Positions 5,074-23,987 of a DNA stretch of 64,000 nucleotides are shown in pieces. Both the position numbers and the translations under genes were made by a program. The notes under the pieces are model-generated. The model had not been told where the DNA came from, did no database searches, and was given only the letters and a program-made list of their open reading frames with translations. The first letter of the stretch is position 1. Each line of letters opens with the position of its first letter. The DNA comes from Planctomycetia bacterium. Its GTDB lineage: Bacteria; Planctomycetota; Phycisphaerae; UBA1845; UTPLA1. The stretch spans positions 1,240,001-1,304,000 of the forward strand of contig JABTTW010000001.1 of assembly GCA_015075745.1 (NCBI GenBank), read 5' to 3'.

Positions 5074-5895
5074 ATGGCGAAATTAAGTCGATCACGCAGG
5101 ACGGGCGAGACGCTCGACATTTCCAAATTGAGGCTCATCGGGATGGTTCATCTGCCCCCCCTGCCCGGCTCTGCGGGGTCGAAACTGAGCATGTCGGCAA
5201 TCATCGACCGGGCAGTCATTGAGGCGCGGCAATTAGGCAAAGCAGGATTCGACGCGGTCATCGTTGAGAACTTCGGCGACGTGCCCTTTGCGGCGGACCG
5301 CGTTCCGGAAGAGACAATCGCCGCGATGAGCATTGTCATCGCCCAGGTTGTGCAGACGTGCGGCGTGCCGGTGGGCGTCAACGTGCTTCGTAATGACGCA
5401 CTATCAGCCTTGGCCATCATAGCGACGACGGGGGCAGCCTTCGTCCGCGTGAATGTGCTTTCCGGCGCTTACGCCACAGATCAGGGCATCATTACGGGAA
5501 AGGCCAATGAGGTGCTGCGGAAGCGAGCGGCGATCGCCCCGCATGTCGGCATCGCCGCGGATGTGCATGTCAAACACGCGACACCGATTAGCCAGCCGGA
5601 TATCACCCTGGCCGCCGAGGAGACGGCCCATCGGGCGGGCGCGGACGTGCTGATCGTCAGCGGAACCGGCACCGGCAAGGCAACCGATCTTGCCGCCGTA
5701 CGCCGAGTCAAGGAGGCCGTCCCGAAGACGCCGCTATGGATCGGCTCGGGCGTGACTGCCGAGACGGTTTGTGACTATTTGGACATCGCGGACGGGTTGA
5801 TCGTCGGAACGGCTCTGAAGCGCGGCGGGCAGACAACGGCAGCGCTGGATGAGAAGCGGATTCGCGAATTCGTCCGCGCCGCGAAGCGCGTATAG
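5074..5895 (+). CDS. btpA: BtpA/SgcQ family TIM-barrel protein
   Basis: This 273-residue protein matches the BtpA/SgcQ family: GMVHLPPLPGS at the N-terminus, DAVIVENFGDVPF, PVGVNVLRND, DVHVKHA and IGSGVTAETV, ending with a phosphate-binding-like GLIVGTALKRGG. Family members include cyanobacterial BtpA, linked to photosystem I stability, and enterobacterial SgcQ, in a sugar cluster; the reaction catalysed is not established. The ATG at 5074 was chosen because AAGGAT sits seven bases upstream; an in-frame ATG at 5002 overlaps the previous gene. No photosynthesis genes are nearby, so the photosystem role should not be transferred. It is followed by a convergent PQQ protein 40 bases away. Confidence 0.85.
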   Translation: MAKLSRSRRTGETLDISKLRLIGMVHLPPLPGSAGSKLSMSAIIDRAVIEARQLGKAGFDAVIVENFGDVPFAADRVPEETIAAMSIVIAQVVQTCGVPVGVNVLRNDALSALAIIATTGAAFVRVNVLSGAYATDQGIITGKANEVLRKRAAIAPHVGIAADVHVKHATPISQPDITLAAEETAHRAGADVLIVSGTGTGKATDLAAVRRVKEAVPKTPLWIGSGVTAETVCDYLDIADGLIVGTALKRGGQTTAALDEKRIREFVRAAKRV

Positions 5896-5934
5896 ACTGC
5901 CTTTAGGCAAGACGATCACCGTGGCCGCCGAGGA

Positions 5935-7212
5935 TTACTCCTCCCCGCCTGCTTTCGCCGCGCCTTCGATGCGAAGATCAAGGCAAACCACCGTGGTGTG
6001 ATCGCGGGCATACAGTAAACCGTCCACGAAGACCGGTACGGTCCAGCATCGCTCGCCTTGTCGCTGCTTGGTCACTGTCTGCCACAGCGAGCGCGTGTTT
6101 CCCTCAAAGATGCTCGCCGTGGAGATCGGCTCAAAGCCCACAGGCGAAGCCTCGGCAACTTGCAATTCACCCGATTCACGGAGCAGGAACAGGTACCGCC
6201 CCACCGCGAGCATGGGACCGTGGACGATGCGCCGCTTGAGCCATTCCACCTTGCCGGTGGCGAAGTCCACGCATTTGAGGCCCGTCTCGTCACAGGTATA
6301 GATTTTTCCGTCGATCAGAATCGGCGTCTGGAATTTGTTTCGTAGCTTGAGGCTCTTCCAGAGTTCTTCGGCGGCGAGATTGTCTCCATCTTTCCGCAGC
6401 TTAAAGAGCGCCGCGCCGTAGCCATAGCCGGAGCTGATAAGCAGTCGGCCGTCGTGAAAGATCGGCCCGGCAACGTTGACGCCTGAGTGTGAAGGCCAGG
6501 GCAGCCGCAGGACCAACCGGCCGGTATCTCGCTCAGCAATGAGAATGCTCTCCGCCATAAACCCGCAGATGTAGCGCTTGCCCTCGAAATCGAATGGATA
6601 TGGTGTGGCGTATCCCGCCGGGTCGTCCCCGCAGGTCCACACGAGTTTGCCGGTCGTCTTGTCCACCGCTCGAAGCGAGCCGTCCTTGCCGCCGGCCGTG
6701 AAGATCGCGAGATGGCCGTCGATCAGAACCGAGCCGGAATAACCCCAGTGCGGCTTGCCGTGCAGCTCGTACTCCCAGACTGTCTCGCCCGTCGCAGCAT
6801 CGAAGCAGAACACCCGGGCGTGCGACCCCATCATGTAAACGCGATGGTCGCTCACGGTCGGCGTCGCGCGAGGGCCGTGGAGATTCGGATCGGGATCGGT
6901 CATCTCCGGCTCAAAGGGACGCTCCCAGATCACCGCGCCGGTGACCGTGTCGAGACAGATGACGGTCTGCTGCTTGTCCCTTGTCCCGCCGGTGTAGAGC
7001 CGGCTGCCGACGATGGCGAATGAACTGAAGCCCGGTCCGACTTCGCGGGACCACAACTTCGGCGGTCCTTCACTGGGCCAGGTCTTCAGGAAGTTGGTAG
7101 CCGGGGCCGCACCGTCGTATCGCGGCCCGCGAAGGTGCGGCCAATCTCCGGCGTTGAGACTCGCGGAAGGAGTGGCAATAGCAAGCAGGCATGCCCAAAT
7201 CGGCGTTCGCAT
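5935..7212 (-). CDS. PQQ-like beta-propeller protein, exported
   Basis: A roughly 425-residue protein with a signal peptide (MRTPIWACLLAIATP... to about residue 22) and repeated propeller blades of the PQQ/BamB type: GAVIWERPF, GETVWEYEL, GKLVWTCG, GKVEWLKR, each preceded by a strand of the LYTGG or VYMMG kind. The opening WPHLRGPRYDG is the typical planctomycete quinoprotein-like start. Such proteins are usually predicted periplasmic scaffolds or dehydrogenase-like propellers; residues for a PQQ enzyme are not identifiable here. Upstream in-frame ATGs at 7221 and 7248 are alternatives. It lies 25-60 bases downstream of the phosphatase-like gene on the same strand and may be co-transcribed with it. 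Confidence 0.8.
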   Translation of the reverse strand: MRTPIWACLLAIATPSASLNAGDWPHLRGPRYDGAAPATNFLKTWPSEGPPKLWSREVGPGFSSFAIVGSRLYTGGTRDKQQTVICLDTVTGAVIWERPFEPEMTDPDPNLHGPRATPTVSDHRVYMMGSHARVFCFDAATGETVWEYELHGKPHWGYSGSVLIDGHLAIFTAGGKDGSLRAVDKTTGKLVWTCGDDPAGYATPYPFDFEGKRYICGFMAESILIAERDTGRLVLRLPWPSHSGVNVAGPIFHDGRLLISSGYGYGAALFKLRKDGDNLAAEELWKSLKLRNKFQTPILIDGKIYTCDETGLKCVDFATGKVEWLKRRIVHGPMLAVGRYLFLLRESGELQVAEASPVGFEPISTASIFEGNTRSLWQTVTKQRQGERCWTVPVFVDGLLYARDHTTVVCLDLRIEGAAKAGGEE

Positions 7213-7272
7213 GGCGAACATCGTATGAGTGAGGAAAAACCCGGTCAAACGGCGGGCGACTTCGCCCCGACC

Positions 7273-8547
7273 CTAGTGCGTGCCGACGATGTCGAGAATC
7301 ACCATCGACGCGTCGTCCGCCTCAGAAAGTCCGCCGGGCAGGGTGTCGAGTATCTCCGTGAGCTCGGCTCGAAGCTCGTCCGGGTCGCCTACCAACTTGG
7401 CTGCGACATTCGGCTGGAGGCATGGCATCGCGGGCATGGGCGGGCGCTGCTCGATCAGGATCGACTCTAGACCGTCGCTGTAGAGAACAATTCGCTGGCC
7501 GGGCTTGAGCATGATGGATTCATCCGTGAACTGCTGGCCGGCGCAGAGACCGAGCAGGCTGCCGTCACCATGCAATTCGCCGATGAGCCCGGAACGGTCG
7601 ATGAGCATGGGCGGCGGATGACCGGCGACGGAGTAATCGAGTCGCAGTGTCTTGCAGTTGATGATGCCGTACCAGCCGGTGATGAACTGCGAATCGGGCA
7701 GGCCCTGTGCGGCGAGTTGATCGTTCAGTGCGCTGAGCACCTCGGACGGCCTGGCAATCACATAGTCATTGCCATCGATACGCTTGGGCTGGATAGCATG
7801 CTTGATGTACATGGTCAGCAGCCCGGCGGCGACACCGTGCCCGACGGCATCGGCAAGATAGAAACCGTAATGATTCTCGTCGAGCCGAAAGATGTCGAAG
7901 ATGTCTCCGCTGACCCATGTGCAGGGCCTGAAGAATGTCGAAAATCGCAGCGGCCCCGCGGCAACAAGATCGCGCGGCATGAAGTCGCGCTGCAGCCGCG
8001 AGGCCAGGCGAAGCTCGCGGTCGATGGCGTCGAAATGCTTGTGCAGGCTTGTATGCAGGCGATGCATGCCGCTGACTTCGCGGGCGAATGCCTGAAGTGC
8101 GGGCTGAAACTGCGTGACCGCGAGGATGGCGCCGCGGAGGACGTCCATTCCCGAGTCCACGGGCAGGCAGACGAAGCCGACACCGACATTGGCAAAGCGG
8201 TCAGGACGCGCGGTAAGGACAATGACTCCGATTTGAAGCTCGCCCAGGGCCGCGAAGCACTCGCTGAGGCGCTTGCGATCGCCTGTCGATTCCGCTTGTT
8301 TCGCTTCGCCTGCGTCGATCCAGATGGCGACATCGAAACCGGGAAGCGACCAACCGGCGGGAATCTCAGCCGGAAGTTCGACCAATCGGGCAGCGCAAAA
8401 TTCGCTCGCCGCCGACAACCGGCCCGCGACAACTTGCGCCGACGTCCGATCACCCAAAACGGCGATCCGGTATATCGGACTCCGCAGCAGACGGTCCGCT
8501 GATTGACCGGCCGTCGTGACTACTCGAGTGGTTGTCGTGGTTGCCAT
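7273..8547 (-). CDS. SpoIIE/RsbU-type PP2C serine phosphatase with receiver-like N-terminal domain
   Basis: The C-terminal half (about 185-424) is a SpoIIE-type PP2C phosphatase: GDIFDIFRLDENHYGFYLAD supplies the metal-binding Asp motif, followed by AVGHGVAAGLLTMYIKHA and, near the end, SEADDASMVILD. The first 150 residues look like a Rossmann/receiver-type fold (IAVLGDRTSAQVVAGRLS, VDVAIW-type strands) but a clear phosphoacceptor aspartate is not obvious. A short helical segment near 165-190 (FDAIDRELRLASRLQRDFMP) is the usual signalling linker before the phosphatase. Family members dephosphorylate anti-sigma antagonists in partner-switching pathways. No anti-sigma factor or STAS protein is adjacent, so the partner is unknown. 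Confidence 0.85.
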   Translation of the reverse strand: MATTTTTRVVTTAGQSADRLLRSPIYRIAVLGDRTSAQVVAGRLSAASEFCAARLVELPAEIPAGWSLPGFDVAIWIDAGEAKQAESTGDRKRLSECFAALGELQIGVIVLTARPDRFANVGVGFVCLPVDSGMDVLRGAILAVTQFQPALQAFAREVSGMHRLHTSLHKHFDAIDRELRLASRLQRDFMPRDLVAAGPLRFSTFFRPCTWVSGDIFDIFRLDENHYGFYLADAVGHGVAAGLLTMYIKHAIQPKRIDGNDYVIARPSEVLSALNDQLAAQGLPDSQFITGWYGIINCKTLRLDYSVAGHPPPMLIDRSGLIGELHGDGSLLGLCAGQQFTDESIMLKPGQRIVLYSDGLESILIEQRPPMPAMPCLQPNVAAKLVGDPDELRAELTEILDTLPGGLSEADDASMVILDIVGTH

Positions 8548-8703
8548 TTGACTTTCAGCCGATAAGTACCGCCGCGCAATCGATGCTGCGTTGTTACTTC
8601 GGCTGGGATGAATGGCAGGTTCACTTAGCGAATTGAAGCGTCCCGCGATGGGGACTCGGCGTGCCGGGTTTGCCGGCCGGCCACGTCCGAAGGCGGATAG
8701 CGA

Positions 8704-9906
8704 TTAGACCTCCGCGACCCGCTCGGGGTGGGCCGCCAGCGTCTCGCCGATGGTCATGCGCTGCATCTCGCTGGTGCCCTCGTAGATCTCGGTAATCTTG
8801 GCATCGCGGAGGTACCGCTCGACTTCACTCTCGCGGCAGTAGCCCATGCCGCCGAAGATCTGAATCGCCTGATTGGCGCAGAAGCTGGCCGTCTCGGCGG
8901 CGAAAAGCTTGGCCATCGCAGGAATGTGCAGCGAGTGGCCCGCCTGTCCCTTGACCCAGCAGCCCTTATAGATCAGGGCTCGACTGGCGGCGATGCGTAC
9001 GGCCATGTCGGCGACCTTCCACTGAATCGCCTGAAACTCCGAAATGCTCTTGCCGAATTGGCGGCGCTCCAGGGCATACTTCGCCGAGCGATCGAGCGCA
9101 GCCTGGGCAATACCAAGGGCCTGAGCGGCGATGCCGAGTCTGCCGCCGTCGATGGCGGTGAGGGCAATCTTGAGGCCGTGGCCGCGCTCGCCGAGCAGGT
9201 TCTCGGCGGGGACCTTGCAATTCTCGAAAACGAGCTCGGTCGTGCTGCTGCCGCGGATGCCGAGCTTGTCTTCGTGCTTGCCGACGGTCAGACCGGGTGT
9301 GTTCTTGGGGACGATGAAACAACTTGAATTGCGCCGGTCCCCATCCTCTGTACGGACGAAGAGAAGGACGATGTCAGCTTCCGAGCCATTCGTCACCCAG
9401 AGCTTCGTGCCGTTCACAACCCACTCGTTGCCCTTGAGGACGGCGCGACATTTGATCGAACCGGCGTCGGAGCCGCTGCCTGCTTCGGAAAGGGAGAAGC
9501 AATTGAGCCACTCGCCGGATGCCATGCGCGGCAGCCACTTCTTCTTTTGGGCTTCAGTGCCGAACTTAAGTATCGGGTCGATGACGAGGGAGTTCTGAAC
9601 GCTGTTGATGACGCCGACGGAAGCATCGGCGTAAGACAGTTCTTCGACAACGATGGCCGACGCAAGCGCGTCCATGCCGGCGCCGCCGTACTCCTCGGGG
9701 ACGCAGATGCCTTGATATCCCATTTCGCCAAGCTGCTTGATAACCTCGTGGGGAAACTCGCCCTTGATATCGCGCGCCATCGCGCCCGGCGCGATGACGT
9801 TTCGGGCAAAGTCGCGAATGCTGTCTCGCAACATGCGATGGTCTTCATCCAACTCGTACCCGAATGCGATGACGTCTTCCATGGTCGCGGCGTCTTCCTT
9901 CATCAT
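8704..9906 (-). CDS. Acyl-CoA dehydrogenase
   Basis: This 400-residue FAD flavoenzyme has the full family length, with CFSLSEAGSGSDAG (FAD/substrate loop), the middle domain WVVNGTKLWVTNGSEAD, and C-terminal QIFGGMGYCRESEVERYLRD. The IYEGTSEMQRM motif contains the likely catalytic glutamate of the MCAD/SCAD type. It oxidises acyl-CoA to 2-enoyl-CoA and passes electrons to electron-transfer flavoprotein. Chain-length preference cannot be read. A start at the internal Met of MEDVIAFGYELDEDH is also plausible. A second, clearly paralogous acyl-CoA dehydrogenase lies about 100 bases upstream on the same strand, so the two probably form one transcription unit for fatty-acid or branched-chain amino-acid degradation. 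Confidence 0.93.
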   Translation of the reverse strand: MMKEDAATMEDVIAFGYELDEDHRMLRDSIRDFARNVIAPGAMARDIKGEFPHEVIKQLGEMGYQGICVPEEYGGAGMDALASAIVVEELSYADASVGVINSVQNSLVIDPILKFGTEAQKKKWLPRMASGEWLNCFSLSEAGSGSDAGSIKCRAVLKGNEWVVNGTKLWVTNGSEADIVLLFVRTEDGDRRNSSCFIVPKNTPGLTVGKHEDKLGIRGSSTTELVFENCKVPAENLLGERGHGLKIALTAIDGGRLGIAAQALGIAQAALDRSAKYALERRQFGKSISEFQAIQWKVADMAVRIAASRALIYKGCWVKGQAGHSLHIPAMAKLFAAETASFCANQAIQIFGGMGYCRESEVERYLRDAKITEIYEGTSEMQRMTIGETLAAHPERVAEV

Positions 9907-10005
9907 GTTGCGGCCTTCAGAGGTATATGTTCGTTTCCGGTATTCGCAGTCGAACCGCCCTTTGTCGCGGCTTGGTTATTCAGATCGAGCAACACTTCGG
10001 CCTGG

Positions 10006-11157
10006 TTAGGCGCTGAGGCGTTTGAACTCCGCGCGGGCAATGAGCATTCGCTGCACTTCGCTGGAACCCTCGCCGATCTCGCAAAGCTTGTTATCGCGGA
10101 GCAGTCGCTCGACGCAGACATCCTTGGTATAGCCGGCGCCGCCGAAAATCTGAATGGCATCCCAACCGACCCGGCTGGCCATCTCAGAAGCGAACAGCTT
10201 GGCGATGGAGGACAACTCCTTGTCCGGGCGGCCGGCGTCATGGGTGCAGGCGGCCTGACGAACGAGCAGTCGAGCGGCCTCAATCTGAGTTTCCATGTCG
10301 GCGAGCTTGAACTGAATCGCCTGGTGGCTATGAAGCGGCACGCCAAAGCTCTTTCGCTCGGCGGCGTAGCGCACGGCCTCCTCCAGGCAGCCTCGCGCGA
10401 GACCGACCGAGAGGGAGCCGATGGTGACGCGACCGCGATCGAGAACGCGCAGGGCGTCGATGTATCCCTCGTTCAGCTCACCGCACAGATTCTCGGCGGG
10501 GATTTCGCAGTTCTCGAAATTCACCGGTACCGTGTCGCTGGCACGCATGCCCATCTTGTCTTCAGGCTCGCCGATGATCAGGCCGGGCGTTCCCTTCTCA
10601 ACGAGGAAGGCGGAAATCGTCCGGGCCCCGCGCTCGGGTTTCGTCCGGGCAGTGACGACGAAAACGTCGGCGCGCTTGCCATTGGTAATCCAGAACTTGC
10701 GACCGTTGATGACCCAGCCGGCAGAGGTTTTCTCGGCGCGGGTGGTCATGGCCTCGGCATCGGTGCCGCATTCCGGCTCGCTGAGACACCAGGCGCCGAT
10801 CGCCTCGGCGGAGGCCAGCTTGGGGAGCCACTTCTGCTTCTGCTTATCGTTGGCGGCAAGGCGAATGTGCGTCGAACAAAGGCCGCTGTGCGCCGCGATG
10901 AAAAGGGCGGTCCCGCCGCACCACCGGGAGATTTCCTCGACGACAACCGTCATGCCGAGAAGGCCCTGACCTGAGCCGCCGTACTCCTCTGGGAAGGAAA
11001 CGCCGAGGAAGCCGACCTTACCCATCTCACGGGTGACCTCATCCGGCAGCCACTTTTCCGCGTCCCATTTTCTGGCGTGGGGCGCGATCTTTTCCGCGGC
11101 GAACTTACGCGTGAGATCGCGAAATGTCGTCAATTCGTCCGAAAGCGTGAAATTCAT
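10006..11157 (-). CDS. Acyl-CoA dehydrogenase (second paralogue)
   Basis: A 383-residue acyl-CoA dehydrogenase starting MNFTLSDELTTFRD. It shows WCLSEPECGTDAEAMT (FAD/substrate region), WVINGRKFWITNGKRADVF, QIFGGAGYTKDVCVERLLRD and IGEGSSEVQRM, the last holding the candidate catalytic glutamate. The ATG at 11157 has an AGGA RBS six bases upstream, whereas the longer ORF extension to 11280 is arginine-rich and unlike the family. It precedes the other dehydrogenase gene on the same strand by about 100 bases. The two differ enough in the substrate region that distinct acyl-CoA substrates are likely; specificity is not determined here. Confidence 0.93.
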   Translation of the reverse strand: MNFTLSDELTTFRDLTRKFAAEKIAPHARKWDAEKWLPDEVTREMGKVGFLGVSFPEEYGGSGQGLLGMTVVVEEISRWCGGTALFIAAHSGLCSTHIRLAANDKQKQKWLPKLASAEAIGAWCLSEPECGTDAEAMTTRAEKTSAGWVINGRKFWITNGKRADVFVVTARTKPERGARTISAFLVEKGTPGLIIGEPEDKMGMRASDTVPVNFENCEIPAENLCGELNEGYIDALRVLDRGRVTIGSLSVGLARGCLEEAVRYAAERKSFGVPLHSHQAIQFKLADMETQIEAARLLVRQAACTHDAGRPDKELSSIAKLFASEMASRVGWDAIQIFGGAGYTKDVCVERLLRDNKLCEIGEGSSEVQRMLIARAEFKRLSA

Positions 11158-11429
11158 GTCGTCCTGCTCACAAGATAGAAATTCTGCAGCCGGGATCAGG
11201 CATCGAACCCGACAAATCCTCCTCCGATATGTCCTATCGGGTGAGGTTTGCATAATAAGGTTCGCCGCAAGGTGGGTCAAACGGGGCGACTCAATGGAAC
11301 TTGCGATGGGACAGATGATTAGAGCGAATATGGAGCAGCCCGCGACGGCTTCTCTACCGCGAGTTCAGGGTTTGTGAATTTGATTCTCGCCTCAAAGAAA
11401 AAACGTATTACCTGCACTGATTTTGAGGG

Positions 11430-12314
11430 TTATCGCTCGTAAAGCCGAAATCCCTTTCCGCGAATCTTTTCCGCTCGCCATGAAACCGTGTCGGGATCCT
11501 GCCCCAACAGGATCGTCCAATCGCCATCAGACGTCTCTTCGAGCAGAGATTCCTTGTTGACCATGTTTTCGTAGGGCAGGAGGTCATACGCCATGTTGTA
11601 ACGCAGGCCGGCGTGGGCGCTCGTCGGTATGAGATCCGCCGGAAGAATCGCCCGCTTGCCGCCGCCCTCAAGGATTACCCCCTGCTGATGCCGCGTGTGG
11701 CCGGGAAGAATGCGCGTCGAAATGCCTTCGGCGATCTGCGCGTCGCCGGACAACAACGTGAGAAGGCCCGACTGTTCCAGCGGCTCGAGATTCTCCCGCC
11801 GATATGTGCCGGTCATAACGGCATGGCCCTCGACTGCGTCGTCCCACTCGCCGCGCTGAACGAAATACCGAGCTTTCGGAAACGTCGGCTGCCAGCCGCC
11901 CTGACCATCGGACATGGTACCGCCACCTGCATGATCGAAATGAAGGTGCGTGAGTATCACAATGTCGATCGACTCTCGATCCACCCCGGCCGCGGTCAGC
12001 GAGTCGAGCAGCCAATGCGACCCAAAGCTGAAAAACCCATGCTCCTTTTCCGCGTATTTGGCGTTCTCGCCGCAGCCCGTCTCGATGAGAATTCGGGCAC
12101 CGGACGTCTCGACAAGCATACAGCTCGTCGCCAGCGGAATCCGGTTCTGCTCATCAACCTGAACGGCTCGGGCCCACACCGGCTTGGGGATAATGCCGAA
12201 CATGGCCCCGCCGTCCAGCGAAAAGGTGCTCCCATCCAGGACGCGTATCGTCAGGTCACCGAGATGAAGCGTCGGCGGCGTCGGGGTCGGTCCCTGTCTG
12301 GCGGCAAGCGGCAT
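11430..12314 (-). CDS. Metallo-beta-lactamase-fold hydrolase
   Basis: The protein (about 294 residues) carries the MBL-fold zinc signature THLHFDHAGG (HxHxDH), followed by the distal histidine in LPGHTRHQQG, the bridging aspartate in ILPADLIPTSAH, and the last histidine there. The overall layout resembles AHL-lactonase/quorum-quenching and related hydrolases of this superfamily, but the substrate is not identifiable. The ATG at 12314 is preferred because the fold begins at LHLGDLTIRVLDG; an in-frame ATG at 12362 adds 16 residues of no known similarity, and neither has a strong RBS. It is divergent from the MmgE/PrpD gene, sharing a short intergenic region. Confidence 0.8.
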   Translation of the reverse strand: MPLAARQGPTPTPPTLHLGDLTIRVLDGSTFSLDGGAMFGIIPKPVWARAVQVDEQNRIPLATSCMLVETSGARILIETGCGENAKYAEKEHGFFSFGSHWLLDSLTAAGVDRESIDIVILTHLHFDHAGGGTMSDGQGGWQPTFPKARYFVQRGEWDDAVEGHAVMTGTYRRENLEPLEQSGLLTLLSGDAQIAEGISTRILPGHTRHQQGVILEGGGKRAILPADLIPTSAHAGLRYNMAYDLLPYENMVNKESLLEETSDGDWTILLGQDPDTVSWRAEKIRGKGFRLYER

Positions 12315-14399: not shown

Positions 14400-15872
14400 C
14401 TAACAGCCGCTGTTCAGCAGGCAGTCACCGAAATTGGGGACATCGTCCAAGTTAATAATGCCATCGCGAACGGCCTCGACGTCGCCGGCGCACAATTCCT
14501 GAAAGGACGGACCACCGAAGAGCAGCCGGTCAACAAAGATCTTGATGTCCAAGCCATCCACCACGGCGTCGCCGTTCAGGTCGCCATTGATGCAGGGATA
14601 CGGCGTGACGGTCTGTGCTGTCGCCGTCGAAGTCGTACCCGGCTTGAAATAGCCAAGCGTCACCGTCCCCTTGCCGGCCCAGGGCGCGACATCGGCATCA
14701 AAACGGAAATTGTAAAGCGTGCCCCAGCGAAGCGCATTGGCATTGGCGTTGACCGAAAAATCCTCGGTCGACCAGGTCACGCTCGAATTTGCGACGACCG
14801 GCGGCCAATCGGTGCCGTCGTAGTTGACGTTTCCGGGGCCGTCGCCGTCGTGGTAATCCACATCGCGAAACTCAATGTTTGTAATGTTGGCATCGGGACG
14901 AATGGGAATGGAAACTGATCCGATGGACCGGTCGGAATTGAGATTCTGTACGGCGTATTCGTAGTGGTAGATTCCCCCGCCGAGGTTCGTGGCTTGTGCG
15001 GCAACGATCACCATAGCGGTCAGCCCCCCGTCTTCCTGGGTAACAATGTCTACCTCGCTGACGGTGGGGTCGGTATCCTTCCAGGCCCTGATACCGGCTT
15101 GCTCTCTCTGGGTCGAACCGATCGCGGTAAAGCTCCAGGCGGTACCGCTGCCGGTCACCGAAAGGGGTCGATAAGAGGCGTTGTTATTCTTGTGACCCGC
15201 TGAGGCATCGTCGGCGGCGATATACTGTCCCTCACCAAAATAGCGCGTCGCATTCACATCGCCCGAGCCGTTAGAAACTTCAAGGTCAACGATCTTTGCC
15301 TGGCAGCGGCGAGCGACCGGGCCGGAAAAGCCCGGGTTGGCCACGGGGTGGATATGAACACCGGTCGTCGGATTGACCTGCCACTTAGGGCCCAGACTGC
15401 CCTGTCCGCCGTTGCGACCGGACGCATAAGGGTCTGAACAGCCGACCCCAAGGGCGTTGCCGCTGGTTCCGGAGCAAGAGGCACAACAAACATGGTCGCT
15501 CAAAGCGTAGAATCCGTGCTTGAGCCAGCTCTGTCCAAGCTGCTCAAAGCGGCGGGATCCATTGACCAGTTTCATTCGAAAGATGTTCTGACCGATCACC
15601 GGGTGCATGTTGCTCGGCTGGTCAATCCAATTGAGATTGACGTTGCCCAGGTTGCAGGAGGTGGTGCCCATCGAGAATGCCTCGATCCCGCTCGCGCTGT
15701 TGTAGTTCGAGACGGAGTCGTGGGATAGGACACCCACGACGACATCGGGGCCAATGGACTGTGTGGGTGATCCCGGACAACCGGAGCCCAAAGCCGGGCG
15801 AGGTTGAAGAACGACCATTGCAGCGATAACAACACACGAAAGTAAGAACGATCGAGTAACCGGCTGGGACAT
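14400..15872 (-). CDS. Secreted protein with C-terminal dockerin-like EF-hand pair
   Basis: A 490-residue exported protein: signal peptide MSQPVTRSFLLSCVVIAAMVVLQ cleaved near ALGSG, then a cysteine-bearing beta-rich body of unknown function, ending with two calcium-loop-like repeats, GDLNGDAVVDGLDIKIFVD and DGIINLDDVPNFGDCLL, as in dockerin domains. The ATG at 15872 was chosen because an AAAGG RBS lies upstream and it begins the signal peptide. The larger frame to 16130 includes non-coding leader. No catalytic motif is recognised. It may be a surface or matrix protein, as these calcium-binding tails are common in planctomycete exoproteins. A decayed paralogue follows directly downstream. Confidence 0.75.
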   Translation of the reverse strand: MSQPVTRSFLLSCVVIAAMVVLQPRPALGSGCPGSPTQSIGPDVVVGVLSHDSVSNYNSASGIEAFSMGTTSCNLGNVNLNWIDQPSNMHPVIGQNIFRMKLVNGSRRFEQLGQSWLKHGFYALSDHVCCASCSGTSGNALGVGCSDPYASGRNGGQGSLGPKWQVNPTTGVHIHPVANPGFSGPVARRCQAKIVDLEVSNGSGDVNATRYFGEGQYIAADDASAGHKNNNASYRPLSVTGSGTAWSFTAIGSTQREQAGIRAWKDTDPTVSEVDIVTQEDGGLTAMVIVAAQATNLGGGIYHYEYAVQNLNSDRSIGSVSIPIRPDANITNIEFRDVDYHDGDGPGNVNYDGTDWPPVVANSSVTWSTEDFSVNANANALRWGTLYNFRFDADVAPWAGKGTVTLGYFKPGTTSTATAQTVTPYPCINGDLNGDAVVDGLDIKIFVDRLLFGGPSFQELCAGDVEAVRDGIINLDDVPNFGDCLLNSGC

Positions 15873-16037
15873 TCTGCGCCTTTCTTTTGAAGAGATGTGC
15901 TCAAGCTTGCTTGAGCGACGAGCCATGGCGGAGTCGACCACGCAGCGAACATATCCATCGGAATGATGGATCGGTTGGCACATGCGCAGTGGTTTGTTTG
16001 GACCTCCCGCCGCTAAAAAATTAACTCGCAGTGTTCC

Positions 16038-16066
16038 AGTGTACCATGCCGATATTTCCCCATCAA
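16038..16066 (-). promoter_or_regulatory. Candidate sigma-70 promoter of the 14400-15872 gene
   Basis: On the minus strand, TTGATG (16061-16066) and TACACT (16038-16043) are separated by 17 bases, with four of six matches each. Transcription would begin near 16031, leaving a leader of about 160 bases before the ATG at 15872. The rest of the 300-base gap (15873-16175) shows no gene. Confidence 0.45.
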
Positions 16067-16175
16067 GCATTTTTGACGAATCTGAGTGGCAATTCTCGGA
16101 CCCCGAGCGGCGCGAATTAGGCGATAGCACACAGTATGCGCGGAAAAAATAATCCTTGCGGATAATTTCGGCCGT

Positions 16176-18194
16176 TCAACGCGTCGAATTTCGGACTACG
16201 CTGGTCCGAGCAGTGGAATATGCCGAAACGGCGCAGTGGATCGCGCCGAACCGTCGCTGGCTTTCTCCGCAGAGGATCGTCTCAACCTTCACTTCAGGAC
16301 CGAGTTCCTGGGTGAGCCGCTCAACGGCGATTTGGTCATATTCCTCGAAAAACCCGCCCGAGCCGGGCATCAGGAAACTCACCGCTGTTTGAATTCCGTT
16401 GATGTGGTTAAGGCCACGATTCTCTTCGGCCAGACTTGGTATAGGCACGATCTTAAAGCGGACATCCTCCAACTTCTTCAGAAGTGCTCGGCGTGCCGCG
16501 TCTCGCCTGCGGATGGCCGAGAGGTATTCATCGAATTGGGCATCGCCCGTCGAATTGCCGGCCGGTCGCGATTCCGCTTCGGCGAGATCCATGGCCAGTA
16601 GAAAGGTCTGAAAGTTACCCACCCCGGAGTCAACTGTACCGGCGCTGAAATAGTCGCAGAGCGCCTCAGGGTACTGGCCCATCCTGACCGCAGCCGCATT
16701 CAGCCGCGGTCTGGCGATCGCGAGAAACCCCGACAAGCGGCCCGCCTCCAGGTGCGCGATGCATTGGGCGAACTGCTCGTCACTCAAGACCTTTGCCGCG
16801 TACAGGGCCTTGGTGCTGATTCGCAGAATTGTGCGAACGGCCGCACCGGTGTCGTTGACAAAGGCGGTGAGTCCGTCTTTGCGAGCACGAACCGACAATT
16901 CATAATCGATGTGATATGAAACAGCCGGCAGAACGACGACAGCATCGGCGTCGAATTCCACTTTGAACGCGTCAATCACCTGATCCGCCGTCAGTCCCAG
17001 CGCGAAATTACGAAACACCTCGGCCTCGCCGATGAGCAGGTATCGCCAACCCATCTGCGGATCGGCGACCAGCATGAGATTCCCGCCCTGGAACAGCAGG
17101 GGCGATTGAACGATTGTGTGGCCGGACGCCTTCAGCCCTCCCCATAAATGGCTCTCGCCCGGGGCAAAGATACTGCCTTCTTCGCCACGGCTGGCAAATC
17201 GCGGAACGATGGTCGCGGGCTCGGGGGCGGATTCATCCGTCGATTGGTAGAGACCAGGTTTCCCGTTGTCCTGGGCCCATTCAGAAACGTCGAATGGCTC
17301 GGCAATCACAGTGAGCTGATCGAGGCGCTTAAGCGGCCATAGCCGGGCAAAACCAAGCATCAACTTGAGTTGGTCCTTTTCGATGCTGACGACGAAGCGC
17401 GCATCCGGTACGGCACTGGACAACTGACGAGCGATGTCGAGCGAACTGCCGTCTCCCACTCCCCGCCAATAGTCGCCGCGCGCCAGTTGAAGCCGAAAAA
17501 GGGCGATCTCGCCCTCACCGGACTCCGTCGCCGCCCGGAATCGCTGTTCACCCTTGTAGAATTGGAATGGAAGATTCTGAACCTCGTCTCCGATCTGATC
17601 GGCAGTTCGCCGTGACATCAGAAGGCCAAGAACATAGCGGACGATCGTGTAGTCATCATCCGGCCCCGCACCGGGAATCGGAAAGTACCTCAGCAGATCA
17701 ACCGGCATTCCCACCTGCCTCAAAACGGCAAGGTCCTCCGCTTCTCCGCGGCTCAGATTCGCCGGACCGATGATGGCCAGGACGTGCGTAAGCGTCTTTA
17801 AGAGTCCGTCGCGTGCAAGACGCGTGGTGACATGGTCCGCCGCCGCCCGCAGATACGGCGCCGAATCTTCCGCCGGAAGCGCATAGGGCCAGGCAGGGCC
17901 GGCATCATCCACGACGGCGCGATAGCCAAGGAGCGAAGGCCGAGCCTCGGGAATACTTGACCAATACACGCTGGCTGCCCCTGATGGCGCGTGGTGAACG
18001 ATCTTGATTTCTGCATCGACGGGAAGCCGAGAGTCCTGGCCTGCAACTGCCGGAGAACCTGCATGAAGCGGGGCGACACTCAGGAACATCGGTATAGCTA
18101 TGCAGACCAGGCTAACGCATGCGGCGAGTGTACTGATTCGAAGGCCCCCGGCATCAAACCGGGAAATCGGATGGTAACGAACGCGTGCAGTCAT
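16176..18194 (-). CDS. Exported guanidine-modifying-superfamily protein, agmatine deiminase/peptidylarginine deiminase-like
   Basis: A 672-residue protein with an N-terminal hydrophobic signal/anchor (about 20-45). Its second half contains signatures of the agmatine deiminase/PAD-like fold in the right order: SEWAQDNGKPGLY near 305 (cf. WxRDxGP), FQGGNLMLVAD near 369 (cf. GGN...D), YHIDYE near 428 (HxD) and GAIHCAVS near 653 (the catalytic cysteine position). Family enzymes hydrolyse guanidines such as agmatine or arginine through a cysteine thioether. The first 260 residues and the 220-residue stretch between HxD and the cysteine are longer than in standard agmatine deiminase (about 350 residues). 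It overlaps the upstream small membrane gene by ATGA, indicating coupled translation. The superfamily call is by motif only; the substrate is unknown. Confidence 0.6.
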   Translation of the reverse strand: MTARVRYHPISRFDAGGLRISTLAACVSLVCIAIPMFLSVAPLHAGSPAVAGQDSRLPVDAEIKIVHHAPSGAASVYWSSIPEARPSLLGYRAVVDDAGPAWPYALPAEDSAPYLRAAADHVTTRLARDGLLKTLTHVLAIIGPANLSRGEAEDLAVLRQVGMPVDLLRYFPIPGAGPDDDYTIVRYVLGLLMSRRTADQIGDEVQNLPFQFYKGEQRFRAATESGEGEIALFRLQLARGDYWRGVGDGSSLDIARQLSSAVPDARFVVSIEKDQLKLMLGFARLWPLKRLDQLTVIAEPFDVSEWAQDNGKPGLYQSTDESAPEPATIVPRFASRGEEGSIFAPGESHLWGGLKASGHTIVQSPLLFQGGNLMLVADPQMGWRYLLIGEAEVFRNFALGLTADQVIDAFKVEFDADAVVVLPAVSYHIDYELSVRARKDGLTAFVNDTGAAVRTILRISTKALYAAKVLSDEQFAQCIAHLEAGRLSGFLAIARPRLNAAAVRMGQYPEALCDYFSAGTVDSGVGNFQTFLLAMDLAEAESRPAGNSTGDAQFDEYLSAIRRRDAARRALLKKLEDVRFKIVPIPSLAEENRGLNHINGIQTAVSFLMPGSGGFFEEYDQIAVERLTQELGPEVKVETILCGESQRRFGAIHCAVSAYSTARTSVVRNSTR

Positions 18195-18604
18195 GATCCC
18201 GCCTTTCCCCGTCGTGCCAGAAGGATGCCGGAGAAGACAATGATCGCCACCGCGATCCAGATAGGCAGGTAAGAGACGGCGGGGGATCGCCGAACATGCG
18301 ACGGTTGAGTTGTTCCGCGGGGTACGGCCGTCGAATCCCGGACTGGGATGCCGTCTTTGGTCTCGCGGACGACAATTCGGAATTGCGTTTCAAACGCCGA
18401 GCGGATCATTCGGTCGGCAACGCGATGCAAGTACTCATCGGGCAGGTTTAAGACATCCAGCGTGTGGTTGCCAACGGGCCGAGAACGCAACTCTTCTACA
18501 ACCCTGGAGGCAAACGGTGTAGGCGATGGGCCCGGTTGTCCGGCGGCGACGCAGGGCATCCATAGGGATAACAGCAAGACCAGATATAGCCAACGTCTCA
18601 TCAC
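18191..18604 (-). CDS. Small exported protein with C-terminal membrane anchor
   Basis: A 137-residue protein with signal peptide MMRRWLYLVLLLSLWMPCVAAG, a short extracytoplasmic domain (about 25-105, containing LPDEYLHRVADRMIRSAFE) and a C-terminal transmembrane helix (LPIWIAVAIIVFSGILL) followed by RRGK. The topology suggests an exported domain tethered by its C-terminus. No family is recognised. Its stop overlaps the start of the deiminase-like gene (ATGA), so the two are probably made together and may be partners at the membrane. Confidence 0.65.
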   Translation of the reverse strand: MMRRWLYLVLLLSLWMPCVAAGQPGPSPTPFASRVVEELRSRPVGNHTLDVLNLPDEYLHRVADRMIRSAFETQFRIVVRETKDGIPVRDSTAVPRGTTQPSHVRRSPAVSYLPIWIAVAIIVFSGILLARRGKAGS

Positions 18605-18699: not shown

Positions 18700-19209
18700 T
18701 CAGCGAACAGTCGAGGCAAGAATCGGGCCGCGAAACGATGCGTGGCAGGCATTACAAGTGGCGATGATCTCGCTCAGCTTGGTACCAACGGCTGCGGTAT
18801 CATTTCTCTGGGAAACCTCGACCAGGTCAAAACATTGACGTTCCATCCTGGCTGCGAGGCGATCGAAGACGCGGCGACTCTCATCGTTCATTTCATTGTT
18901 CTTGAAAAGGTGTGGAATCAATCGGGCATCCTTCGATAGAGCGGCCGCAAGCCGCGACACCCGTTCCATGTTCTCGGGCATCTCACCCATATCGGCGCGA
19001 TGTGCACGGCGGTCCAAATTAAGCTCGCAAAGCTCTTCCATGACCGCGCGGAGCCGCTCGCTGTTGACGACGTGCAGACCGTGCTCGTCGTCTGCGGGGA
19101 CCAGGGAAACGGTCGGCGCGGAAGAGCCGTCGGAACACGTTCCAATTCCGAGAAAGGCGATGGCGATAAACGGTATCAGGCACTTACATGTAGTATGCGG
19201 ATTTTTCAT
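18700..19209 (-). CDS. Cytochrome c'-like (class II) exported heme protein
   Basis: A 169-residue protein with an N-terminal signal (LIPFIAIAFLGIG) and a helical body ending with CNACHASF, a CxxCH heme-attachment motif very near the C-terminus, as in cytochrome c' and c-556. Position and helix-rich character fit class II c-type cytochromes, which act in the periplasm. The ATG at 19209 is preferred over one at 19242 that overlaps the preceding gene. It directly follows porB (30 bases), so it may be co-transcribed with the oxidoreductase genes, though whether it takes electrons from them is speculative because that complex is cytoplasmic. Confidence 0.72.
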   Translation of the reverse strand: MKNPHTTCKCLIPFIAIAFLGIGTCSDGSSAPTVSLVPADDEHGLHVVNSERLRAVMEELCELNLDRRAHRADMGEMPENMERVSRLAAALSKDARLIPHLFKNNEMNDESRRVFDRLAARMERQCFDLVEVSQRNDTAAVGTKLSEIIATCNACHASFRGPILASTVR

Positions 19210-19238
19210 GGCGTATGAAAACTCAGAAAGCTTCAATC

Positions 19239-20180
19239 TCAAACGAGCCGGTCTCCCACGTTGTTCTCCGTCAGACCATCCTTATTATCGGCAGGAAACA
19301 TCTTTGCCATCGCGTCAAGATGCGTCCACTGGAGGTCGATTTCGCGCCTGATGCCCGCCAGATCCATCGACGAACGCGTGTACCTTGTTTGACGCATCGC
19401 ATACTCTTCAAGCGGTACTCCGTCGGGTCGAGCGTTGATACGGTAGCGCAAACCATCGAAGATTTCATAAAGGGGGAAAAGTCCGCATCCCACCGCGTGG
19501 CGGACGAGGTCAACGCTCTCTTCGGCTTCCGACTTCCAACCGGTAGGGCAGGGCGAGAGCATCACCATAAACCGGAATCCTCGCACTCGGCGGGCGAACC
19601 TCACCTTCCGAAGGAAGTCGTCCCGATGGGCGACGGAAAGGGTAGCGGCGTACGGTATGCGGTGGGCGGCCATGATCGACATGATGTCCTTTTTACGCTC
19701 GCCCTTTCCGAAGGGTGACGTGGTGGTGGCGATGCCCATTGGGGTAGCGCTACTTCGCTGGCCGCCCGTGTTTCCATATATCTCGTTATCATAGCAGATG
19801 TAGATGATGTCCTCGTTACGCTCGGCCGCTGCGGAGAGGGTGGCGATCCCAATGTCGAAAGTGCCGCCGTCGCCCGCCCAGCAAATGACGGGAGCATCTT
19901 CGTCGCACAGCCGCTGCACTGTGCTCAGGCCGGTAGCCACCGCGGGACTGCTCGCAAAGGTCGTTGCGACGACGGGGGCGCCGTAAGCACTGCCCGGAAA
20001 CGCGCCGGCGGTAACGATTCCACAGCACGCTGGAATTGCCATAATGGGCTTCTCACCGCCCAGTCCCTGGTCGAGAAGCTGCAGGCCGAGGGACATCCCG
20101 CAGCCGGCGCAATTGGTGTTCCCGCAGCGAAGAAGATGTTCGCCTTGGATTTGCAGGCTTCCTGTCAACGTCTGGGTCAT
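19239..20180 (-). CDS. porB: 2-oxoacid:ferredoxin oxidoreductase, beta subunit (TPP-binding)
   Basis: A 313-residue beta subunit: CGNTNCAGCGMS near residue 19 and the later CPTGW provide [4Fe-4S] ligands typical of the pyruvate:ferredoxin oxidoreductase beta chain, and GDGGTFDIGIAT with the downstream YDNEIYGNTGGQ is the thiamine-diphosphate/Mg motif. NTGGQRSS is characteristic of the PorB group. The enzyme converts pyruvate (or another 2-oxoacid) and CoA to acyl-CoA, CO2 and reduced ferredoxin in the cytoplasm. It overlaps porA by ATGA, fitting stoichiometric synthesis. Pyruvate is the likeliest substrate by subunit composition, but not proven. Confidence 0.9.
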   Translation of the reverse strand: MTQTLTGSLQIQGEHLLRCGNTNCAGCGMSLGLQLLDQGLGGEKPIMAIPACCGIVTAGAFPGSAYGAPVVATTFASSPAVATGLSTVQRLCDEDAPVICWAGDGGTFDIGIATLSAAAERNEDIIYICYDNEIYGNTGGQRSSATPMGIATTTSPFGKGERKKDIMSIMAAHRIPYAATLSVAHRDDFLRKVRFARRVRGFRFMVMLSPCPTGWKSEAEESVDLVRHAVGCGLFPLYEIFDGLRYRINARPDGVPLEEYAMRQTRYTRSSMDLAGIRREIDLQWTHLDAMAKMFPADNKDGLTENNVGDRLV

Positions 20181-21349
20181 ACAGTCGCCTCCTCCCAGAT
20201 CGGTTCTGTTTCCGATCTGCGGGCTTCCAGGTCGTCGATGATTCCCTCGATGATCTCCGGTGTAACGTCGCCGCCCCCAAGACCGACGATGTAATCCTGC
20301 AGAATGACGTCCCGGGGACCTCGAAGGCTCGCGGCCGCTTCCTGCCAGAAGATTCCGCCGGAGCCGGGAGAGTGGTTCCGATCCAACACGCCAATGCGCT
20401 TAGCCGTCGTGACCGCGGCCCTGAGTTCTTTGCGCGGGAATGGTCTGAACTGCTTTACTTTAATCATTCCGACGCGTCGGCCGCGCTCGCGCTGCCGGGG
20501 GATAACGCGCCGCAGAGTGCGGGCCATCGTATTGCACGCAACGACGATCGTATCGGCGTCATCAGTTTGAAGGGTCGTCAGGGGGCCATCCGGACGGCGC
20601 CCGAAGACCTTTTCGAATTCGTCAATGGCCTGGTTGAGAACTTCGGGAACGCGTTCCATCGCGATCTGAATCTCGCGACGATGGTGCGCTGTTTCTCGCG
20701 GCCAGGTAAGCCCGCCGACGGTGACCGCCTTTCCGGGGTGCAGATAATGCGGCACCTTGCAGGCGGGAAGATATCGATCGACCTGCTCCTGCGTAGGCAG
20801 TTCAACGACCATTTGAGTGTGGGAAATGATGAATCCATCCATCGCGACCATGACCGGGAGGAGCACGCGAGGATCTTCCGCCACGCGAAAGGCGAGGAGA
20901 ATGGTGTCGACGAGGTCCTGATGGGATTCGGTGTAGAACTGAATCCATGCCGCATCACGAAGAGCGAGGCTGTCGCCCTGATCCACCCAGATATTCCATG
21001 GCGGACCGAGTGTGCGGTTGACGGCGATGAGCACAATGGGGAGGCGATAATAGCCGGCGGCGAAAATGTTCTCTGTCATGTATGCCAGCCCGTTGGCGCT
21101 GGATGCGGTGAACGAGCGGGCGCCGCCCAGGGAGGCGCCGATGCAAACGCCCATGGCGGAGTGTTCCGATTCCACCGGAACGACGCGACCTTTGGTGAAC
21201 GCAAAACTACTGAGATACTCAATGATCTCGGTCTGTGGCGTGATGGGGTATGCGCCGGCACAGCAGCCCCGTGCCGCGCGATTAGCCTCCCCTGCAAGCG
21301 CCAGTGTCTGACCCGCAGCGTTATTGCCTGTTACAAGTGCTCTAGCCAT
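20177..21349 (-). CDS. porA: 2-oxoacid:ferredoxin oxidoreductase, alpha subunit
   Basis: A 390-residue alpha subunit with the pyrimidine-domain start GCCAGAYPITPQTEIIEYLS, the conserved ESEHSAMGVCIGASLGGARSFTASSA region (residues about 58-84), the PIVLIAVNRTLGPPWNI loop and the C-terminal FRPFPRKELRAAV and LDRNHSPGSGG stretches typical of PorA. It pairs with PorB to make the catalytic TPP unit. Its stop overlaps the porB start, and it begins 47 bases after the fused gamma/flavoprotein gene. All three therefore read as one operon. The alpha/beta/gamma organisation is the heterotetramer type rather than the single-chain enzyme. Confidence 0.92.
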   Translation of the reverse strand: MARALVTGNNAAGQTLALAGEANRAARGCCAGAYPITPQTEIIEYLSSFAFTKGRVVPVESEHSAMGVCIGASLGGARSFTASSANGLAYMTENIFAAGYYRLPIVLIAVNRTLGPPWNIWVDQGDSLALRDAAWIQFYTESHQDLVDTILLAFRVAEDPRVLLPVMVAMDGFIISHTQMVVELPTQEQVDRYLPACKVPHYLHPGKAVTVGGLTWPRETAHHRREIQIAMERVPEVLNQAIDEFEKVFGRRPDGPLTTLQTDDADTIVVACNTMARTLRRVIPRQRERGRRVGMIKVKQFRPFPRKELRAAVTTAKRIGVLDRNHSPGSGGIFWQEAAASLRGPRDVILQDYIVGLGGGDVTPEIIEGIIDDLEARRSETEPIWEEATV

Positions 21350-21396
21350 TCGGCACCTTCATTTGGTCGCATGAGCGGAGTGACGCGATCGTTGCG

Positions 21397-23607
21397 TTAA
21401 AGTTCCGCCATATAGATCACACCGCGCGGACACTGCGTCGCGCAGATGCCGCAGCCTTTGCAGTAGTCGTAGTCAAAAAGATATCCGTCGCCGTCCCGGC
21501 GGAGGATCCCCTCGGGGCAATACTCCACGCATCGATCGCAACCGTTGCAGACGCCGCAACTCATGCAACGGGCCGCCTCGAGCATTGCGTCGGGCTTGTT
21601 GTCTTCGTACCCCAGGCGGACTTCTGAAAACGTATGCCGTCGTGTCGTGGCAGATAGATGCCGGCTACGGTAGGCGGGGACCCGGGAGAAAACATGCATG
21701 TGCATGGCATCCGGTCCCGCCACCCCTACCGACTCGGCCGCCCCCACGGTTTCGTCGGAAAGCGTGCGATGAATGTGCTGTGCGGCGCGACGCCCGTTAC
21801 CAATGGCCGCGGCGACGGTACCGTCATTCGTCGCAAAGTCGCCGCCGACAAAGATAGGCGAACCCGAAAGACCAAGCAGACGCGTGCGATCGGAGATCTC
21901 CGCTCCCTCGGGCAAAATTGAAAGATCGGAGGACTGACCGAGCGCAAGAATGATACGGTCACAAGGCAGCTCGAACTCGTTGCCCTCCGCGACTTCCGGA
22001 ATCGGCTGACGACGACCGCTCTTATCCGGTGGGCCAAGCGTCATTCGTCGGCAGGAAAGAAGCATGGAATCTCTGACTTCACGAAGCCGAACGGGCGCGA
22101 CCAGTTCACGCAGGGTGACGCCCTCTTCGAGAGCCTCGTCGATTTCCTCGCGGATCGCAGGCATCTCCCGCCGGCTTCGTCGATAAACAACCTCCACCGC
22201 CGAGGCGCCGACGCGCAGCGCCGAACGTGCTGCATCGATAGCGGTGTTTCCGCCGCCGATGACAATCACGCGCTCGCCTCGCAGGGCCACTTTGTCATGC
22301 TTGATGCGATCGAGAAAGTCGATGCCCTCAATAACCCGGCGGGAATTTGCAGGACCCAGATCGAGAGATCGAATCTGCTGCAGGCCGGTGGCCACGAATA
22401 CGGCATCGTACTGTCGCGATAAATCCATGAGGCGCGCGCGGTCGACCTGCGCTTTAACGTGAAGATTCACGCCATGCTGCACGACGTAGTCGATCTCCGC
22501 ATCAAGCACTTCCGGCGGCAGGCGATATGAAGGAATGCCGTAGCGAAGGAGACCCCCGGCCTCTTCAGCACCGTCAAACGCGTCCACGCGGTAGCCGAGC
22601 TTCGCCAGATGATACGCCGCGCTGAGCCCGGCGGGTCCGGTACCGATCACCGCGACTCGGTGCACACGCCACGGCCTCGACGGTTTCGGGCGAGTCCCCT
22701 TGTCGGCGGCCGCCCGCTCAAGGTCTCGAATCTGCACGGGCTCATCGAAGATCGCACGATTGCACGAATCGATGCAGGGCGCGGGGCAGACTCTGCCGCA
22801 GACTGCCGGAAGCGGTGTGGTCTGCAACAGCGTCGAGAGTGCCTCGTCGTAGTCGCCGCGCCGCAGGCAGCGAACCAAGGACTGAATGTCGTTTCCCGCT
22901 GGGCATGCATGCGAGCAGGGCGAAAGCAACTCATGTCGGTGCGGTTGGCGGTTCGCCCACGATCCCGTACGGATGGCCGACTGCTCGCCCACGTGTTCGT
23001 CGAGCAAGTCGATGGGCGGCGGCTTTTGAGGTGCCCGGCGTGTTTCAATGGGCGTGCCCGGAAGCTCTATTCCGCAGATCGCGTCAAATGCCTCGCGGGC
23101 CGCGCCGACATTCGCCCCGTCAAAGCGCAGATCGCCCAGTGAATCGGCAACCGACTCCCACGGCTCGCCGAGGATTCTCAGAACGGCGCCCAGCATGGTC
23201 GTGTTCACGATCGGGACCGACTTGGTTCCGAGCTTGTGCTTGATGGCGATGCCCGTGGCATCGATGGAGGCCACGTGTCGCCCCGCGAATTCCGGACCGA
23301 GGCTCTCTGGGTCTTCAGGGGTGTTAAGGATGATCCAGCCGTCCGGTTTGAGACCCGTGAGAATCGACGGGCTGATGAGTGTGCGATCGAGGACGATGAC
23401 GTGATCGGGCGTTCGAACCTGATTGTGATTGACTATTTCGTACTCGTCGACCCGGACATAGGCCTGAAGCGGCGCCCCTGATCTTTCCGCTGCATAAACC
23501 CCAAAGGCCTGGGCAAACTGTCCCCGAAGGAAATAGGACGTGGCGATGAGCTTTGCCAGCGTGACGCCGCCCTGCCCGCCACGGCCGTAGATGGTCATTT
23601 CGATCAT
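21397..23607 (-). CDS. porG: Fusion: oxoacid oxidoreductase gamma subunit - GltD-like FAD/NAD(P) flavoprotein - 2x[4Fe-4S] ferredoxin (delta)
   Basis: This 736-residue protein joins three units. Residues 1-185 are the PorG gamma domain (IYGRGGQGGVTLAKLI). About 225-300 is a Fer4_20-type segment (CSHACPAGNDI, CGRVCPAPCIDSC). About 315-620 is a GltD/BCR-like flavoprotein with an FAD dinucleotide fold (VIGTGPAGLSAAYHL) and a second nucleotide fold (VIVIGGGNTAIDAAR). The last 55 residues are a PorD ferredoxin with CMSCGVCNGCDRC and CKGCGICATQCPRG. Such a fusion could pass electrons between the oxoacid oxidoreductase and NAD(P)H. The ATG at 23607 is chosen because the gamma domain starts there; 44 upstream in-frame residues are unlike it. 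First gene of the porG-porA-porB run. Confidence 0.88.
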   Translation of the reverse strand: MIEMTIYGRGGQGGVTLAKLIATSYFLRGQFAQAFGVYAAERSGAPLQAYVRVDEYEIVNHNQVRTPDHVIVLDRTLISPSILTGLKPDGWIILNTPEDPESLGPEFAGRHVASIDATGIAIKHKLGTKSVPIVNTTMLGAVLRILGEPWESVADSLGDLRFDGANVGAAREAFDAICGIELPGTPIETRRAPQKPPPIDLLDEHVGEQSAIRTGSWANRQPHRHELLSPCSHACPAGNDIQSLVRCLRRGDYDEALSTLLQTTPLPAVCGRVCPAPCIDSCNRAIFDEPVQIRDLERAAADKGTRPKPSRPWRVHRVAVIGTGPAGLSAAYHLAKLGYRVDAFDGAEEAGGLLRYGIPSYRLPPEVLDAEIDYVVQHGVNLHVKAQVDRARLMDLSRQYDAVFVATGLQQIRSLDLGPANSRRVIEGIDFLDRIKHDKVALRGERVIVIGGGNTAIDAARSALRVGASAVEVVYRRSRREMPAIREEIDEALEEGVTLRELVAPVRLREVRDSMLLSCRRMTLGPPDKSGRRQPIPEVAEGNEFELPCDRIILALGQSSDLSILPEGAEISDRTRLLGLSGSPIFVGGDFATNDGTVAAAIGNGRRAAQHIHRTLSDETVGAAESVGVAGPDAMHMHVFSRVPAYRSRHLSATTRRHTFSEVRLGYEDNKPDAMLEAARCMSCGVCNGCDRCVEYCPEGILRRDGDGYLFDYDYCKGCGICATQCPRGVIYMAEL

Positions 23608-23987
23608 GCTGCACCACCGATTGGGTTGGTATCTCCGCCCCGCGCCGCCCAGGAGAAGCCTCCCCAGTGAGAGTAAGCAATGCGACGCGGGGGGCCGACA
23701 CTTGGAGACACGGCAAACGGCATGCCGCTGAGGCTCCATATCGTGCCTAAAGGCCGAGCATTCGTCCCGATGCGATCCTCTCCACCCTGAAAACGGGCGG
23801 TTCAGAAATCCTCAGGGCGGGCAGACCCGTGATTTCGCGGGGTCGGATGCTGAACTTCCCTCAACGCATGGAGAATTGAGGGCAGAAACGGCTGCGGAGG
23901 GGGTACCTGAAATGACACGTGATTTTGCAGTCCGGCCGGTTTTTGAATTCGTGCCAATAAACAGGAGACAACAAACGGGAGATTGCC
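23608..23987. other. Intergenic region between divergent por operon and small gene
   Basis: This 380-base stretch holds an in-frame but unconvincing 5' extension of the fused por gene (to 23739) and a 7-bp stem hairpin CCCTCAA/TTGAGGG at 23858-23882 with an 11-base loop. No clear promoter hexamer pair was found. It must contain the minus-strand promoter of the por operon. Confidence 0.4.

Follow-up and report, generated by a model that had tools for sequence, protein, structure and literature searches.

A divergent exported deiminase of Planctomycetota is associated with a single arginine in a co-encoded family of secreted proteins

Across 694 genomes, the presence of an exported deiminase, encoded here in a 64,000-nucleotide stretch of a Planctomycetia bacterium genome (the window), is associated with one particular arginine, Arg153, in a family of secreted proteins, a member of which is encoded next to the enzyme. 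The near-perfect tracking of the enzyme by this arginine suggests a dedicated protein-citrullination system. We lean towards the view that the enzyme is a membrane-tethered, extracytoplasmic peptidylarginine deiminase (PAD) with a dedicated client. The wider proposition, a site-specific protein-citrullination system in free-living bacteria in which the client arginine would have been gained repeatedly in step with an exported PAD, deimination replacing a neutral residue (usually Leu), we regard as evenly balanced.

The three genes lie on the reverse strand. The deiminase (672 aa; 16176..18194) comprises a signal peptide (residues ~1–46), an extra N-terminal region (~60–225) and a catalytic region (~230–660) with an insert of ~90 aa between His428 and Cys654. 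Upstream is the gene for a 137-aa protein (18191..18604) with a signal peptide, a conserved domain of ~45 residues and a C-terminal transmembrane anchor. Both open reading frames and their junction, a 4-nt ATGA overlap, had been reported in the initial annotation and were recovered at these coordinates in an ORF check of the window. The next gene downstream of the deiminase encodes a secreted protein of 490 aa (14400..15872), with a signal peptide, a ~400-aa core and a C-terminal dockerin-like tail; the listed ORF (14400–16130) starts too early, and the ATG at 15872 was taken as the start. Its Arg153 (codon CGC, 15414..15416) occupies column 108 of our working alignment and is the proposed deimination site. 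The initial annotation noted the coupling to the small gene and overlooked the secreted protein as a third component, along with its diagnostic arginine. A paralogue of the deiminase, 40% identical, is encoded 0.64 Mb away in the same genome and is likewise preceded by a small gene.

Searches with a seed profile identified relatives of the deiminase in the window genome's own order and in two other families, and 40 neighbourhoods were examined. Clustering of neighbours at 39 loci, on genes called with a coding score, showed that just one further neighbour, the secreted protein, recurs in many families: it is present at 28 of the 39 loci, in 26 cases on the strand of the deiminase. Because the window genome contains about six core copies of the family in 5 Mb, adjacency by chance is expected at ~1–2% per locus. 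No recognizable transport, catabolic or polyamine genes were found among the recurrent neighbour clusters of the 39 loci. The core of the secreted protein, marked by the motifs HPVIGQ, SWLKHGF and CSDPYxxxRNG, had no match in Pfam, NCBIfam or the PDB, and an AlphaFold2 model from a two-sequence input reached a pLDDT of 27.8. The tails vary (dockerin, GC-dockerin, choice-of-anchor J), as they do in other surface proteins whose anchors are interchangeable. The family as a whole is found in 94 of 392 genomes of the phylum.

Within the secreted family, a single column, column 108 (the arginine of CSDPYxxxRNG), completely separates the deiminase-adjacent copies from the copies in enzyme-negative genomes. 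Arginine is found there in 30 of 31 adjacent copies, in 23 of 86 non-adjacent copies from enzyme-positive genomes and in none of 46 copies from enzyme-negative genomes, 41 of which have leucine; these counts include 100 extra paralogues beyond the first comparison, that of adjacent with unlinked copies. The site was found post hoc and then tested on further genomes, in which the DNA was searched for the motif C-x-D-P-Y-x3-R-N-G/A. The motif was detected in 5/5 enzyme-positive versus 1/387 enzyme-negative genomes of the phylum sample (where, outside the profile-searched groups, absence of the enzyme was judged by single-sequence search), in 7/7 versus 0/74 genomes of family f38 (81 in total), in 8/8 versus 1/143 of family f8 and in 22/24 versus 1/77 of the window genome's order. 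Overall, 38 of 40 enzyme-positive genomes carry it, compared with 3 of 654 enzyme-negative ones (Fisher test, p ~1e-56, kinship ignored), and all seven enzyme-positive genomes unused in discovery of the site (G619, G644, G661, G665, G678, G498 and G540) are among the carriers. Twenty other f8 genomes have matches to C-x-DPYxxFRNA, a different motif that was excluded from the count; the one tested of these twenty (L263) matched the partner family only with an E-value of 0.0015 when searched alone. The exceptions run in both directions. Two genomes, G607 and G643, have the enzyme and lack the motif, and two others, G454 (88% complete) and G659 (75% complete), encode an R-type partner with no enzyme detected. 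The G123 match falls within an ORF of 101 aa that scores weakly on its own, in a contig region with no family match; it is probably due to chance, although we still count it as an exception.

To characterize the enzyme, we aligned 41 full-length or near full-length family members (alignment A3; start codons were set by rule and many of the genomes are incomplete). The motifs of the window protein are W306-AQ-D309, FQ-GG370-371-N, H428-I-D430 and H653-C654, and W306, D309, R332, Q369, GG370-371, R395, N396, H428, D430, D448, D536, N599 and C654 are invariant in all 41 sequences. Hence, among the signatures read at the outset, the W/D, GG, HxD and Cys elements hold throughout, whereas the His of 'HC' (34 H and 7 R at position 653) is not essential. 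Trp306, Asp309, His428, Asp430, Asn599 and Cys654 are the equivalents of Trp127, Asp130, His236, Asp238, Asn297 and Cys351 of PPAD, the peptidylarginine deiminase of Porphyromonas gingivalis, in which the catalytic set D130, H236, D238, N297 and C351 and the pocket residue Trp127 have been defined crystallographically (PMC4893104). The Pfam family PAD_porph (PF04371) is matched by 37 of the 41 relatives (best E-value 7.2e-13); the window deiminase alone scores 12.3 bits, below the gathering cut-off of 25, and we therefore place it on a divergent branch of the superfamily and not among the members by Pfam's threshold. A profile–profile comparison with ordinary planctomycete PAD_porph proteins (HHalign, probability 98.1, E-value 8.9e-14) paired the W-D, GGN, Asn and Cys motifs and slipped at HxD because of the insert in the deiminase. 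Given the invariant PPAD-type set, the PAD_porph matches and this profile–profile probability, the window deiminase is, as far as its sequence tells, an exported divergent member of the PAD_porph/GME guanidine-modifying superfamily, in line with the initial assignment, and we infer that the family consists of active Cys hydrolases. The narrower label of that assignment, 'agmatine-deiminase-like', found no backing in the NCBIfam search, which returned no match for the window protein; a phmmer search of the PDB with the same protein was also negative. The best PDB match of the family profile was 1zbr (E-value 0.13–0.2), deposited as a 'conserved hypothetical protein', which we take to be a putative P. 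gingivalis deiminase. An AlphaFold2 model of the deiminase from a two-sequence input had a pLDDT of 38.6, and no relatives were found in the viral contigs searched.

In nearly all members, His428 and Cys654 are spaced 226 residues apart, compared with ~130 residues in ordinary PAD_porph proteins (read by eye), so the long insert reported at first sight is real. The 260-residue N-terminal extension reported alongside it holds as an extra region conserved in the family, its length being approximate (~165 residues past the signal peptide, followed by the catalytic domain from ~230). The chain stops ~18 residues past the catalytic Cys, and neither an Ig-like domain nor a T9SS C-terminal domain is present in the window deiminase. 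Hydrophobic N-terminal export signals are found across the family, consistent with the export originally proposed; export had also been taken as an anomaly, which it is not, since PPAD is secreted and Planctomycetota have other exported-looking PAD_porph proteins, with Ig-like tails, so that export alone is not new. The window deiminase thus resembles PPAD in export, in the identity and order of its catalytic residues (W, D, HxD, N, C) and in profile homology over the catalytic region, but differs in the missing Ig-like/T9SS tail, the extra N-terminal region, the insert, the near-obligate small domain, a Q in place of the PPAD R in the WxxD motif and the co-encoded secreted partner. Ordinary PAD_porph proteins of the same phylum (for example, L035 and L054) share the catalytic core and are apparently exported; in contrast, they combine a short core with a C-terminal Ig-like region, lack the small domain and occur in genomes that do not have this system. 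Nor do we regard the window protein as an agmatine deiminase (AguA). AguA, of the same superfamily and chemistry, is cytoplasmic, whereas the window protein is exported, much larger, without an NCBIfam match and without recognizable polyamine genes among its recurrent neighbours. Two variant architectures were observed. A short subfamily of ~574–606 aa (L119 and L120 in G469 and G522, with further members of their clade in G498 and G540) has a His-to-Cys spacing of 183–187 residues, with the insert down to ~45 residues; the small domain was seen in L119 and L120, and all four genomes carry the R motif. At L096:2593-6447 and L115:3943-8043, which belong to two different families, a polytopic, electron-transfer-like 4Fe-4S membrane protein, TPR, the small domain and the deiminase form one chain of 1250–1330 residues.

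The coupling of the small gene to the deiminase, noted at the single locus, is general: in a search with a profile of its core, the small domain (~45 residues, consensus PxGxxTxxxLxLPDxxLxRxADRxIRxxFExQxRxVV) accompanies 39 of the 41 deiminase relatives. It is encoded by its own upstream gene in 19 cases, fused to the N-terminus of the deiminase in 20 and absent or cut off in 2 (the class of L112 was assigned by hand), and the tree requires 7 changes between the split and fused states. The split genes encode a signal peptide and a C-terminal transmembrane segment, and most overlap the deiminase gene by exactly 4 nt; in some fused proteins, a lipobox-like or N-terminal anchor, as read from the sequences, replaces the transmembrane segment. 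This arrangement suggests that the small domain docks or tethers the deiminase outside the cytoplasmic membrane. In L098 the domain was not seen and the locus ends at the contig end, and in L105 (G643) no small domain was found within 20 kb of the deiminase. The deiminase of G643 (L105/L268) thus lacks the small domain, and neither the R motif nor an R-type partner was detected in that genome, possibly a correlated loss. Tandem deiminases occur at L091 (G634; 5621-11861), one fused to and one split from the small domain, with an R-type secreted partner near each. A second, paralogous deiminase clade with the small gene (L083 at G000:C1:617.7 kb, L085, L087 and L090) has no adjacent secreted partner and instead neighbours a different exported protein that is also conserved (cluster #9).

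In the mechanism that we favour, the domain of the small protein would bind the exported deiminase and hold it at the membrane, the two being one chain in half of the relatives. By the chemistry of the GME superfamily, D309 and D430 would grip the guanidinium group, C654 would attack C-zeta and H428 would shuttle protons, with hydrolysis yielding citrulline and ammonia. The main client would be the R-type of the secreted CSDPY/SWLKHGF family, in which Arg153 would most likely be converted to citrulline before or during display outside the cell via the dockerin-like tail. Such deimination would neutralize Arg153, matching the neutral residue that enzyme-less relatives encode directly. The main tension lies in specificity. 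PPAD modifies C-terminal arginines through Arg152/Arg154 (PMC4893104), whereas the proposed client arginine is internal; unless cleavage of the partner exposes it, the specificity would have to differ. By analogy, R332 (41/41) and R336 (40/41), located in the aligned region, could play the role of Arg152/Arg154, which would require cleavage of the partner after Arg153. There is a precedent in Streptomyces for a bacterial PAD that acts on a specific client made by the ribosome, the citrulassin lasso peptides (PMC12971885). That client is a small RiPP peptide, whereas here it would be a secreted protein of ~490 aa from the neighbouring gene, and the system would include a membrane-anchor partner.

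Both the gene linkage and the Arg marker are as compatible with binding as with modification, and it is conceivable, although improbable, that the deiminase acts on another substrate, such as cell-wall peptides or other exported proteins, with the R-type protein serving to dock, activate or inhibit the enzyme, its arginine occupying the guanidinium pocket without turnover; the several unlinked R-type paralogues per genome could then be regulators. However, the catalytic residues of the pocket are invariant in all 41 sequences, and an arginine side chain held there is therefore expected to react. We give somewhat less credence to the idea that the exported enzyme deiminates small guanidino compounds (agmatine, arginine or free C-terminal Arg peptides) for nitrogen acquisition, the secreted neighbour being functionally separate. 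Agmatine and arginine deiminases do belong to the superfamily, and R332 together with the near-invariant R336 could bind a carboxylate, as Arg152/154 of PPAD do, but the co-occurrence of Arg with the enzyme (38/40 versus 3/654), the membrane-anchor partner and the absence of recognizable transport and catabolic genes from the recurrent neighbour clusters would all be left unexplained.

The reading to which we assign the lowest probability is hitch-hiking, whereby the arginine is an inherited mark of a partner lineage that moves together with the genes for the enzyme, with no functional link. Deiminase-adjacent copies indeed cluster on the partner tree (10 changes versus 21.6 in shuffled data). 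Nevertheless, arginine at column 108, the only fully separating column, requires 18 changes on this tree, with at least 11 changes forced by supported branches, in several lineages that include unlinked copies. In independent pairs, Arg and the enzyme go together, with essentially no pair showing the opposite; these contrasts are few, with sign-test p values of 0.03–0.4 for adjacency and no significance for presence in the genome.

If the enzyme does citrullinate Arg153, citrullination would be an ordinary modification of bacterial surface proteins, and the predicted site would provide the first handle on a widespread, unannotated secreted family of planctomycetes. To our knowledge, P. gingivalis and lasso peptides provide most of the known cases of protein citrullination by bacteria. 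Literature searches for peptidylarginine deiminase or agmatine deiminase family protein together with Planctomycetes found no papers, and those for agmatine deiminase with Planctomycetota yielded, by title and abstract, nothing on this system.

Directly upstream of the small gene, on the same strand, the window encodes an exported cytochrome c'-like protein (18700–19242; PF01322, E-value 4e-9), which is not among the recurrent neighbours of the deiminase system. It is followed further upstream (19239–23739, reverse strand) by a gene set that reads like subunits of a 2-oxoacid:ferredoxin oxidoreductase, including what appears to be a large Fe-S/pyridine-nucleotide oxidoreductase with a gamma-like part in the same chain.
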